DNA from: Serratia marcescens
Lineage (GTDB): Bacteria > Pseudomonadota > Gammaproteobacteria > Enterobacterales > Enterobacteriaceae
Length of the DNA stretch: 64,000 bases
Reading direction: 5' to 3'
Assembly (NCBI RefSeq): GCF_006715005.1
Contig: NZ_VFMJ01000001.1
Span: 1,550,001 to 1,614,000, forward strand
The position numbers and the translations under genes are program-made. Below the pieces are notes generated by a model. It was not told where the DNA came from. It saw only the letters and a program-made list of their open reading frames with translations, and did not search any database. Shown here piece after piece: positions 1,926 through 41,214 of this stretch (its first letter is position 1; every line of letters starts with the position of its first letter).

Positions 1926-2687
1926 TCACGCTTTTTTATCGCGGCGATGCCAGTTAGCCAGGTTTTTCAGCGGCTGCTTCACATACGGGCTGGCTTTGAT
2001 CAGGCTGAACAGCAGTTTATTCACCGCCGTACCCACCTTGTCCATCGGCCGGTCGATATCGAGAAACAACACCGCACGCAGCTCGTCGGTGTCGTTGCGG
2101 ACCTCGTGCTCGTAAGAGTCATCAAATAGAATCACCTTGCCTTCATCCCAGTGGAGGATCTGATCGTCCACGCGGATCCAAAGCTTTTCTCGATCTTTTG
2201 GCACGATCAATCCCAGGTGCGCACGCACCACGGCACGGGTCGGGCCCTTGTGGGGCACGATGTGATAGTGCGGTTTAAGGATTGAAAACATGGCGGTGCG
2301 CATGCCGGGGATCTCGCTGACCGCTTGTGCGGTGCGCGGGCAAATGGCGCAGTTTTCATCAACCCGCTGCCCGTAGACAAACAGCCCGAAGGTTTTCCAG
2401 TTATCCCCTTTAGAGATGCGTTTCTGATCCGGAGATATTTGGTGGAAAGCGGGGATATCTTCCGGATGCTCCAGCAGCCGATCCAATTCCTCTCGAATTG
2501 TCGGCCAATGGGCTTCCAGCGTCGCCACCCAGTTAAATTCATGATTACCGATCTGCGGCGTAGTCGAGATTAGCGAATGGCGGGTCTGAAACTCACCGTT
2601 CCAGCGCAGGAATCTTTTCCCGGCTTTAAGCAGCAGGCGGCGCAGAAAGGGGGGCTGAGATGCAGGGGGCAAGATGGTATCCGGCAT
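1926..2687 (-). CDS. Aspartyl/asparaginyl beta-hydroxylase domain protein (LpxO-like)
   Basis: 253 residues. It has the 2-oxoglutarate/Fe(II)-dependent Asp/Asn beta-hydroxylase domain: a histidine-rich HYHIVPHKGPTR segment, RAHLGLIVP, a WDEGKVILFDDSYEHEVRN block carrying the second metal histidine, and RAVLFLDIDRPM, which is typical of this family. LpxO proteins hydroxylate the 3'-secondary myristate of lipid A. This protein lacks the N-terminal transmembrane anchor of Salmonella LpxO and is shorter, so the lipid A role is only inferred; another hydroxylation substrate is possible. It is transcribed alone, convergent with ycgN, with the candidate sRNA of 2881-2949 upstream on the same strand. 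Confidence 0.75.
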   Translation of the reverse strand: MPDTILPPASQPPFLRRLLLKAGKRFLRWNGEFQTRHSLISTTPQIGNHEFNWVATLEAHWPTIREELDRLLEHPEDIPAFHQISPDQKRISKGDNWKTFGLFVYGQRVDENCAICPRTAQAVSEIPGMRTAMFSILKPHYHIVPHKGPTRAVVRAHLGLIVPKDREKLWIRVDDQILHWDEGKVILFDDSYEHEVRNDTDELRAVLFLDIDRPMDKVGTAVNKLLFSLIKASPYVKQPLKNLANWHRRDKKA

Positions 2688-2800
2688 AGAATCGTGTCCT
2701 TGATAGCATTGACGTGCTGTAGTCAGCCAGAGACAGGGCCTGACTCACTGAAAGAAAGGGTGAAAATCACAACGTCATTTAGCATAAGGAAAGCATCGCG

Positions 2801-2816
2801 AATGATTTTAATCATT
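2801..2816. promoter_or_regulatory. Inverted repeat upstream of the beta-hydroxylase gene
   Basis: AATGATT and AATCATT face each other across 2 bp, about 115 bp upstream of the hydroxylase start. The look is Fur-like, but the arm spacing does not fit the 19-bp Fur box. It may be an operator for an unnamed regulator. Confidence 0.3.
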
Positions 2817-2880
2817 AGTGCGCGAACGGTGAGTGGAGGCTTGGGCTAAAGGGAATATGCGCAAATCAGATGGGGGGAGG

Positions 2881-2949
2881 AAAAAAGCCCCTGCAAAGAT
2901 GAGGGGCAAGACACACAACAACACCAGGGAAATCGGTAATACTCACTTT
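2881..2949 (-). ncRNA. Candidate Hfq-type sRNA with an ArcZ-like core
   Basis: On the minus strand a TATAGT box (2956-2961 on +) is followed by about 69 nt that end in a strong intrinsic terminator: a 6-bp GCCCCT/AGGGGC stem at 2887-2907 and then six T residues. No reading frame explains this terminator, and the nearest minus-strand gene (hydroxylase) starts about 190 bp further on. The RNA contains GATTTCCCTGGTGTTG (2919-2934), which is identical, as I remember it, to the start of processed E. coli ArcZ. The tail GTTGTTGTGTGTCTTGCCC also recalls the 3' part of RprA. The -35 is weak. It is not at the usual arcB locus, so it may be a second ArcZ-type RNA or an unrelated sRNA sharing the seed. 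Confidence 0.55.
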
Positions 2950-3212
2950 GCCGATACTATAAGGATTTTATGGGTAAACTTCACCAAAATATTGTGCTCT
3001 GAATGTGACAAAAACGCAGTCGTTCATAAGTAACGGTAATTTATTGCTGCCCGAAGGCCGAACACCAAGCGTTGGCATAGCCCGTTTTTGCCTGCCGTCA
3101 TCGCAGAAGTTTAATGTTATGTAAATTACGCGCTTGACCGAGCCGGAATGCTTCTTTTTAAACGATAAGTTGGGTAATTTGGCCGCTCTCCCGCATGTTC
3201 GAGAGTATAACA

Positions 3213-3284
3213 ATGAAAATGATCCGTCTGTTTGCCGTGGCTGGAGTGCTGATTGTGCTCGTTTATTACCTTACACATACCTGA
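3213..3284 (+). CDS. Possible 23-residue membrane peptide
   Basis: ATG-AAA-ATG followed by 20 further codons, encoding a basic start (MKMIR) and one hydrophobic segment (LFAVAGVLIVLVYYL). A GAGAG stretch lies about 10 nt upstream. An intrinsic terminator begins 36 nt after the stop, so a complete small transcription unit is plausible. I do not recognise the peptide. It is upstream of and convergent with dsbB. Peptides of this size are common in enterobacterial stress regulons, but this one could be chance. Confidence 0.45.
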   Translation: MKMIRLFAVAGVLIVLVYYLTHT

Positions 3285-3320
3285 AATGGGGTTATCTCTG
3301 AATTTGACCGCAATCCCCTA

Positions 3321-3350
3321 AAAAAATGGCGCCTTTCGGCGCCATTTTTT
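3321..3350. terminator. Bidirectional intrinsic terminator (dsbB 3' side)
   Basis: A perfect 13-bp stem, aaaaaatggcgcc / ggcgccatttttt, with a TTTC loop. A-rich and T-rich flanks on either side make it work for dsbB on the minus strand and for the small ORF on the plus strand. Confidence 0.85.
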
Positions 3351-3363
3351 GTTTGTCTGCCGA

Positions 3364-3894
3364 TTAGCGGCCGAACAGATCGCGCCGACGTGGGCGAACA
3401 AACTGTGCGAGCAGCACAATCAGCGCCACCAGCAGATAGGCACCGAAGATGCCGACCAGCCACTGTGGCATTTCCAGCGTCAGGAACTGCCATTGGCGCA
3501 CGGAGCAGTCGCCGGAAGCGTGGAACACCGCCGGTAGCCATTTGTCCAGCGGCAGCCACGAAGGGAAGCTCACGAAGAAATCGCAGGTATTGAACGGCGA
3601 AGGGTGCAACTGGATCATGGTGTGCTTCCACGCCAGCTGTAGGCCTTCCCAGGCGCTGTAGATCCACAGCAAGATCGCCACATAGCGCAGCGGGGTTTTC
3701 GGCGCGATGGCCCCCACCAGCGAAGCGCCGAGGATGCCGAACAGCGCACAACGCTCGTAAATGCACATGACGCACGGCTGCAGCAGCATAACGTGCTGGA
3801 AATAGAGTGCGACCAGTTCCAACACCAACGCTGTCAGGGCCATCAGCAGCCAGGCGCCGCGTCCTTGTGAACAGCGGTTAAAGAATTGCAACAT
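3364..3894 (-). CDS. dsbB: Disulfide bond formation protein B
   Basis: Inner-membrane quinone reductase that re-oxidises periplasmic DsbA and passes electrons to ubiquinone. The start chosen gives 176 residues, equal to E. coli DsbB, rather than the start nine codons further upstream. It has four membrane helices and both redox pairs: C41/C44 in QPCVMC of the first periplasmic loop and the second pair in the long loop (FNTCDFF and SGDCSVR). The C-terminus RRRDLFGR matches E. coli. It lies beside nhaB in the same orientation, 120 bp downstream, as in E. coli. Confidence 0.97.
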
Positions 3895-4014
3895 ATCTAG
3901 ATTCTTCCATGCAGTAAGCAATTGAACCGGCAGTGTAAACCAATTCCTCCTCGCTGCCAGCCACCTGGGCCGGATTCAGCGTAAAAATAGTCGGTTCACC
4001 CTGCCGGCGCCGCC

Positions 4015-15680: not shown

Positions 15681-15786
15681 GGCCGGTGAGGGGAAAGGGT
15701 TGTCTCCTTCTGTGCCCCCCGAACCGGCACGACATTGCTCACATTGCTTCCAGTTTTCATGCCAGCCTTGCGCTGGCGTTTTTTTT
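15681..15786 (+). ncRNA. ryhB: RyhB small regulatory RNA
   Basis: Hfq-dependent sRNA made under iron starvation that represses iron-using proteins. The 28 bases at 15727-15754, including GACATTGCTCACATTGCTTC, are as I recall identical to the core of E. coli RyhB that pairs with sodB and sdhCDAB. The RNA ends in an intrinsic terminator (gccagc / gctggc at 15761-15777, then eight T). A 5' stem forms from CCGGT..GGGG (15683) with CCCC..ACCGG. The 5' end is estimated from the -10 box. At about 106 nt it is a little longer than the 90-nt E. coli RNA because of the 5' stem. Its neighbours differ from the E. coli yhhX-yhhY site. Confidence 0.9.
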
Positions 15787-40505: not shown

Positions 40506-40680
40506 GGGGGGTGAGGGAAGGATGATTCGTCGCTGTGCGACTCACCCTGCGGGCCGCGCTGACGCGCGTTGTCTCACTGCGTGAGACTCGAACCTTAGTC
40601 GAAGCTTCTCATCCTTCCCCGGTGCGGAGCAATATGGATGCGATGTGTTTTAACTTGGTTCAGGGATTTTTTGCAAGGGA
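40506..40680 (-). repeat. rtT-like repeat unit 1 downstream of tyrosine tRNAs
   Basis: 175-bp unit homologous to the next one: both start, in transcription order on the minus strand, after a copy of the tRNA 3' end and carry the segment ggaaggatgattcgtcgctg. A TCG-rich hairpin region (tctcactgcgtgagactcgaacct) lies in the middle. Its tRNA 3'-end copy is degenerate (gggggtgagggaagg). Confidence 0.75.
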
Positions 40681-40855
40681 TGGTGGTGGGGGAAGGATGA
40701 TTCGTCGCTGTGCGACTCACCCTGCGGGCCGCGCTAAAGCGCGTTGTCTCACTGCGTGAGACTCGAACCTTGGTCGAAGCTTCTCATCCTTCCCCAATAC
40801 GGAGCGTTATGGAGGCGATGAAATTTTAATTCGGTTTGGGGATTTCTGCAAGGGA
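40681..40855 (-). repeat. rtT-like repeat unit 2
   Basis: Adjacent 175-bp copy. It begins with tggtggtgggggaagg, an exact copy of the tRNA-Tyr 3' end (CCA and acceptor arm, read on +). E. coli tyrT is followed by 178-bp rtT repeats that likewise each begin with 19 bp of tRNA 3' end, so the structure is the same. Confidence 0.85.
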
Positions 40856-40940
<85 letters not shown>

Positions 40941-41010
40941 ATGGTATTCATGGGTTTACTGATTTTTTAAGGAATGGGCTAAATTCCTATTGTGTGCTTC
41001 TAAGGATTAC

Positions 41011-41075
41011 CGCGCTAAAGCGCGTTGTCTCGCTACGCTCGGCTCGAACCTTGTCGAAGCTTCTCATCCTCCCCC
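41011..41075 (-). repeat. Partial rtT-like unit in the tRNA spacer
   Basis: 65 bp similar to part of the repeats (cgcgctaaagcgcgttgtctcg... tcgaagcttctcatcct). It sits between the two tRNA genes, so the repeats appear to have spread through the operon. Confidence 0.65.
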
Positions 41076-41129
41076 TCGGCGTTTAATGAGATTTCAGCTT
41101 TCGCTTCAAGTTCATCAACAAAGAGAAGA

Positions 41130-41214
<85 letters not shown>

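Follow-up and report, generated by a model that had tools for sequence, protein, structure and literature searches.

Organization of the dsbB locus

The analysed window, a stretch of 64,000 nt of Serratia marcescens DNA, corresponds to C1:1550001-1614000 of a 5.57-Mb genome. A small RNA gene, here termed copy A, is predicted on the minus strand between dsbB and a gene for an LpxO-like Asp/Asn beta-hydroxylase (Table 1). Read along the minus strand, the -10 element TATAGT is followed by a leader of about 15 nt, the 16-mer GATTTCCCTGGTGTTG, the segment TTGTGTGTCTT and an intrinsic terminator, with the 5' end predicted by sequence at about position 2949 and a linker rich in U and G between seed and terminator.

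Table 1. Positions of copy A, its elements and its neighbours in the window
Feature	Position	Strand	Basis or remark
ArcZ-seed sRNA gene (copy A)	2881..2949	minus	predicted transcript of about 69 nt; own -10 element and terminator
16-mer GATTTCCCTGGTGTTG	2919..2934	minus	equals E. coli ArcZ 64-79
23-nt core common to siblings B and C	2910..2932	minus	pattern search, Serratia genomes
Intrinsic terminator GCCCCTC..GCAGGGGC-TTTTTT	2881..2907	minus	stem and T-run matched in 26/26
-10 element TATAGT	2956..2961	minus	conserved TATANT in 26/26 copies
-35 candidate GTGAAG, weak but conserved	2979..2984	minus	26/26 copies
dsbB	3364..3921	minus	Pfam DsbB; constant upstream neighbour of copy A
LpxO-like Asp/Asn beta-hydroxylase gene	1926..2687	minus	Pfam Asp_Arg_Hydrox; variable downstream neighbour
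Symmetrical terminator hairpin in the dsbB/copy A gap	3321..3350	listed on plus	palindrome with an A-run and a T-run

Both the promoter and the terminator of copy A are absent from the output of a simple consensus scanner. The single-sequence fold is unexceptional (z -1.3; 20 of 200 shuffles equally good) and places part of the seed inside a weak 5-bp stem-loop. A consensus fold built from 10 variants does not retain this stem-loop and leaves the seed unpaired. The terminator displays 7 pairs there, none of them broken; no covariation was found among these variants, the terminator hardly varying between them.

Conservation in Serratia

By DNA search, copy A was detected in 26 of 30 Serratia genomes, a set that coincides with the genomes of 4.9 Mb or more. 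The remaining four have reduced genomes of 1.5, 1.9, 2.5 and 3.6 Mb; in 30 genomes of other genera, the same search gave no copy A match. The check on recurrence at this site in related species, which the sequence-only reading had proposed, thus yielded a copy in every full-size Serratia genome (26/26), each time with dsbB as its upstream neighbour. The same reading had described a complete small RNA unit; its minus-strand coordinates proved correct, and -10 element, seed and intrinsic terminator are kept in 26/26 loci. It had also called the -35 element weak, in agreement with the form [GA]TGAA[GC] observed at a spacing of 17 nt in 26/26 copies.

The 16-mer together with the preceding C (CGATTTCCCTGGTGTTG) is invariant in all 26 loci, and the leader and flanking bases drift between genomes. 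In each copy, TATANT starts 24-27 nt before the seed (22 TATAGT, 3 TATAAT and 1 TATACT); judged by their sequence, the substitutions stay -10-like.

A copy in what is probably Serratia silvae lies at a locus that lacks dsbB and retains features seen upstream of A. Its upstream region resembles that of L013 (0/1000 shuffles as good), and the alignment with the window's own upstream region is not significant (205/1000).

Seed identity with ArcZ

The 16-mer is identical at 16/16 positions to ArcZ of E. coli and Salmonella. Identity with the start of processed ArcZ, which had initially been put forward, is exact: the 16-mer coincides with positions 64-79 of ArcZ from E. coli K-12, whose 121-nt sequence is given in PMC7311995. 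These positions fit the 5' end of the processed form, for which a length of 55-60 nt is given in the ArcZ review (PMC11331407). In the source genome, a 14-mer within the 16-mer occurs at six places and its reversed pattern at none. Five of these places are terminator-linked, namely copy A, ArcZ and three RNAs termed B, E1 and E2, and one is located in a LacI-type coding frame.

The ArcZ gene normally lies next to arcB. Copy A had been placed away from the ArcZ locus, and this was confirmed: it adjoins dsbB, and the Rfam ArcZ model matches C1:5197563-5197668 instead (83.3 bits, cut-off 66). Canonical RprA is found at C1:2158426-2158535 (71.6 bits, cut-off 70). The gathering score of the ArcZ model (RF00081, 66 bits) is not reached by copy A, the best listed copy scoring 17.0 bits (G020, E 0.93) and being the only copy A among the matches listed with E up to 1 under stricter filters. 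Likewise, the gathering score of the RprA model (RF00034, 70 bits) exceeds that of the best listed copy (29.3 bits; G008, E 0.49). For copy A, no Rfam family was obtained at gathering in the window, nor at E <=5 in positions 2700-3360, and siblings B, E1 and E2 are likewise unnamed in Rfam.

Apart from the identical 16-nt seed, copy A would share with ArcZ (RF00081) the Hfq-dependent pairing in trans with rpoS and other targets. In contrast to ArcZ, it lies at dsbB, carries its own -10 element directly before the seed, and lacks both the long 5' part of ArcZ and its post-seed GGCGC..GCGCC part. ArcZ is cut by RNase E from a longer precursor to 55-60 nt; for copy A, the conserved -10 element, which starts 24-27 nt ahead of the seed, points to a primary transcript that is itself short. 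Moreover, CAATTTCCC is present in 26 of the 30 ArcZ loci read (28 from Serratia, 2 from other genera), that is, in all full-size Serratia genomes, whereas copy A retains the E. coli form GATTTCCC.

RprA (RF00034), which according to PMC11331407 activates rpoS as well, shows a partial likeness to the 3' module of sibling B (TGTGT-GTCTTTGCCC versus TGTGTAGTCTTTGCCC in RprA; 0/1000 shuffles as good with the terminator and 4/1000 without). The module of copy A alone is not significant against RprA (107/1000), and RprA itself sits at another place in the source genome. A purely RprA-derived origin has support in the 3' module of copy B and none in copy A alone. RprA-like 3' modules, consisting of a TTGCTGTGTGTAGT-like segment and a terminator without the remaining RprA, were observed at L095, L098, L101, L102 and L103.

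In a word search of the ArcZ review (PMC11331407), neither paralogs nor duplication nor a pair of copies came up, and among the open-licence papers listed, read mostly as titles and the starts of abstracts, none pointed to a paralogue of ArcZ or to another RNA with its seed. Most likely, copy A is a conserved sRNA gene that is undescribed in this literature, at that level, and in Rfam 15.

Siblings and the wider ArcZ-seed family

With up to 3 mismatches allowed, the 23-nt core TTTCCCTGGTGTTGTTGTGTGTC has 53 matches (50 exact), distributed over 27 of the 30 Serratia genomes; the reversed pattern has none in this set. Every full-size genome harbors exactly two such places, copy A and either sibling B (14 genomes; terminator GCCC..GGGC) or sibling C (12 genomes; terminator CCAGCGTG..CACGCTGG). 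Both siblings combine the core of A with different upstream sequences and terminators, and no common promoter of A and B was detected (992/1000 and 761/1000 shuffles as good). Among the genome contigs of 84,980 species, a collection that may omit records close to the source genome, the 19-mer TTTCCCTGGTGTTGTTGTG occurs in 32 stretches. Of these, 28 are in Serratia-named records, and the remaining four, in non-Serratia records, are all inside open coding frames. At five C-type loci (L082, L092, L267, L268 and L321), the seed follows an MFS transporter gene at a distance of about 27-95 nt from its stop codon; owing to this proximity, copy C may be released from the 3' end of the transporter mRNA. 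One C copy is carried by an S. proteamaculans plasmid.

A more general family pattern was defined as the 14-mer TTTCCCTGGTGTTG followed by TTTTTT within 12-42 nt. With overlapping rows merged and one G008 row without a hairpin left out, 3-6 seed-then-terminator RNAs per genome, ArcZ included, were counted in the 26 full-size Serratia genomes. The source genome contains five: A, B, ArcZ, E1 (3944888) and E2 (4544620). The reduced Serratia genomes contain six (G021, two of them identical), two (G018), one (G006) and none (G009), and the reversed pattern gave no place in any of the 30 genomes. A 13-mer version matched in 114 of 198 genomes of the taxonomic family, with a control of 0.

RNAs of the E type, for example GGCCAA..TTGGC-ACCTGACC..GGTCAGG, were recognized by eye in at least 15 genomes outside Serratia. 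A LuxR-/LuxI-family gene is close by, according to Pfam, in five of the seven E-type neighbourhoods read, including that of E1 in the source genome. A sixth neighbourhood (L278) has a LuxR-like gene by eye, and E2 of the source genome adjoins a GDSL autotransporter gene. GGCCAA-type RNAs near LuxR-/LuxI-family genes were seen in several genera (L270, at G000 C1:3942000-3947500, L272, L273, L274 and L276), and in G292 a GGCCAA-type ArcZ-seed RNA is found near an Rfam YenS match. An extra 14-mer in genomes of the E. coli group (L171, L174, L177, L183 and L185) was rejected as an sRNA; it lies opposite a coding frame that is presumably rbsD-like.

Predicted targets

Published base tests on E. coli ArcZ (PMC7311995) paired C70 with b2741, C69 with b3546 and positions 73-78 with b1892. 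All of these bases fall within the 16-mer shared with copy A. The three genes are, as we assume, rpoS, eptB and flhD, respectively. According to the review (PMC11331407), this seed is used in 330 of the 335 ArcZ pairings that have been mapped.

In the source genome, GGGGAAATC is located at -97 of rpoS. For copy A and a 40-nt stretch of the rpoS leader that includes the ArcZ site, a duplex of -24.0 kcal/mol was calculated (shuffles -15.3 +/- 3.3; 3/300 as good); ArcZ of the source genome gave -16.9 at the same site (43/300), all duplex energies taking no account of accessibility. When all 13 variants of copy A, which represent 26 loci, were paired against this single rpoS site of the source genome, the 9-bp pairing GATTTCCCT/GGGGAAATC was part of the predicted duplex in 13/13. 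Total energies range from -24.0 to -15.8, and the pairing past these 9 bp differs between species. The siblings are unremarkable at the 40-nt site (B 97/300, E1 101/300 and E2 108/300 shuffles as good), and E2 gave 12/300 over the longer rpoS leader.

The initial proposal of targets shared with ArcZ was only partly sustained by these models. For rpoS, the calculation is favourable at the 40-nt ArcZ site and unfavourable over a longer region: against the final 200 leader nucleotides together with 30 nt of the coding region, copy A behaves like shuffled sequence (128/300 as good). Shared targeting of flhD found no support in a simple duplex test, the duplex of copy A with flhD being worse than those of shuffles (284/300 as good). 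By prediction, and with mixed test results, rpoS is the best-supported target of copy A. A search of the source genome for the complement of the 14-mer with at most one mismatch yielded 12 non-seed places and, by reading, no convincing start-region target.

Proposed mode of action

A promoter of its own, a conserved seed and an intrinsic terminator with a U-tail, traits of Hfq-dependent trans-acting sRNAs, all appear to be present in copy A. It is therefore regarded, with good though not full confidence, as a genuine sRNA gene which is a sibling of ArcZ by its seed, not an orthologue, and which acts like processed ArcZ. Since the -35 element is weak yet conserved, an activator probably aids the promoter. 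Together with the good -10 element, this arrangement would give rise to an RNA of about 69 nt, in which about 15 nt precede the seed, and the U/G-rich linker and the terminator with its U-tail follow it. The RNA would be made directly in an active short form like that of processed ArcZ, with no RNase E cleavage needed. It would be bound by Hfq and base-pair in trans with targets of ArcZ, most favourably at the upstream activating site of the rpoS leader. In this way, part of the regulon could receive input from a further signal, distinct from the one that ArcZ conveys. What the analysis demonstrates is the sequence, its conservation, the family and the loci; that the gene is transcribed, that its RNA binds Hfq and pairs with rpoS, and that it answers to a separate signal are inferred.

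Prophage relatives

The family pattern was also found in viral contigs, at 36 places in 35 contigs (reversed control 4). In a strict stem test, 16/36 places have a perfect stem of at least 5, and many others show, by eye, stems with longer loops or mismatches; L282, L285, L287 and L304 were discarded as chance-like. Within the scanned subset, the neighbouring genes encode phage lysozyme (L290, L296, L301 and L302), an Rz1-like protein (L291) and terminase subunits (L290 and L296). It is conceivable, with odds somewhat below even, that copy A belongs to a phage sRNA lineage residing near lysis and terminase genes and was domesticated at dsbB, or that the transfer took place in the reverse direction. 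Copy A may still respond to phage-like signals. Such an origin would be compatible with the ArcZ-like function proposed above.

Consistent with a prophage link, L291 of IMG/VR (ACCGATTTCCCTGGTGTTGTTGTGTCTTGCCCC..GGGGC-T7) is nearly the same RNA as copy A, and copy D of Serratia G029 lies inside a prophage with lysozyme and terminase genes. In addition, the palindrome ATGCAWWATTGCATCARYATT is common to the upstream regions of one copy A clade and of prophage copies, at a similarity above that of nearly all shuffles. In the liquefaciens-type clade, ATGCATTATTGCATCRATATT precedes A in 12/26 copies, and it is found with 1-4 changes upstream of the prophage copies L275, L291, L296 and L302. The upstream alignment of L013 with L291 scored 39, the best among 1000 shuffles being 30; L013 with copy D scored 32 (1/1000 shuffles as good) and L023 with copy D scored 31 (0/1000). 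A palindrome scan of the viral contigs returned four places, of which three belong to these prophage copies and the fourth (L320) has no ArcZ-seed RNA in the following 140 nt. However, the restriction of the palindrome to 12/26 A copies, with the window's own copy lacking it, argues against this origin, as do the genes read around the window's copy A, which are non-phage by Pfam. Moreover, GenBank phage records contain no convincing relative: copy A gave partial matches to 27 records at E 2-7, none reaching 80% coverage, L291 a single 19-nt match (E 4) and D no match.

By description, copy A can be set beside StxS, a phage-derived sRNA that activates rpoS by pairing with its 5' UTR (review PMC12197685). 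The prophage PasA variants of E. coli and the Ysr224 copies of Yersinia ruckeri, as described in excerpt, likewise occur as several RNAs per genome; unlike copy A, the seed of a core-genome sRNA is absent from these descriptions.

In G021, two stretches (C1:782684-795992 and 1975350-1987659) both contain the ArcZ-seed RNA of viral contig L301 without any change and, at a distance of 12-13 kb, an RprA-model match of 47 bits; apparently they are two copies of one prophage with both kinds of RNA. The IMG genomes 2836755666 and 2848317263 each have four viral contigs with an ArcZ-seed RNA (L279-L281, L286, L300, L305, L311 and L312), mostly with a GCCAGC..GCTGG-type hairpin and in one contig with two RNAs.

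Alternative functions and implications

Instead of regulating mRNAs, copy A could mainly sponge ArcZ-binding RNAs or compete with ArcZ on Hfq, as might be expected of a seed identical to that of ArcZ in genomes with several such RNAs. This is improbable, since conservation spans the mRNA-pairing segment and the promoter, and no sequence feature specially suggests a sponge. Still less probable is that the RNA serves the lpxO-like gene downstream as its leader or attenuator, or forms the 3' end of the dsbB transcript: both neighbours are on the same strand and dsbB adjoins in 26/26 loci, but an lpxO-like gene was seen in the examined flank of just 9/26, the RNA stops at its terminator some 190 nt short of that gene, copy A has its own conserved -10 element, and a hairpin with A- and T-runs lies between it and dsbB. 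This palindrome, at 3321..3350, can also be read as a minus-strand terminator of dsbB. Duplexes of copy A with the starts of lpxO (271/300 shuffles as good) and dsbB (25/300) are not significant, and lpxO was ruled out as a partner by synteny (9/26 loci).

Beyond the preferred interpretation of copy A as a trans-acting sibling of ArcZ, the ArcZ seed could represent a reusable module present in the dsbB RNA, in B and C, in the luxR/luxI class and in prophage copies, resulting in an rpoS-centred network shared by oxygen, quorum sensing, a further signal and phages. This wider view is tentative and is held at close to, yet below, an even chance. If Serratia does possess 3-6 ArcZ-seed RNAs, ArcZ included, deletion of arcZ alone would understate the regulon, and the seed alone would be insufficient to assign targets to ArcZ. 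The copies in phages would clearly exemplify how a mobile element can adopt the address of a host sRNA.

Further features of the window

A short open reading frame on the plus strand (window positions 3212-3283; MKMIRLFAVAGVLIVLVYYLTHT, then a stop codon) has a strong terminator behind it and is present in 26/26 Serratia copy A loci with 70.8-100% identity. It has no match in Pfam and is a possible small membrane protein. Elsewhere in the window, a RyhB match is located at 15723-15785 (plus strand), and two tRNA matches together with three RtT RNA matches are found at 40506-41214 (minus strand).
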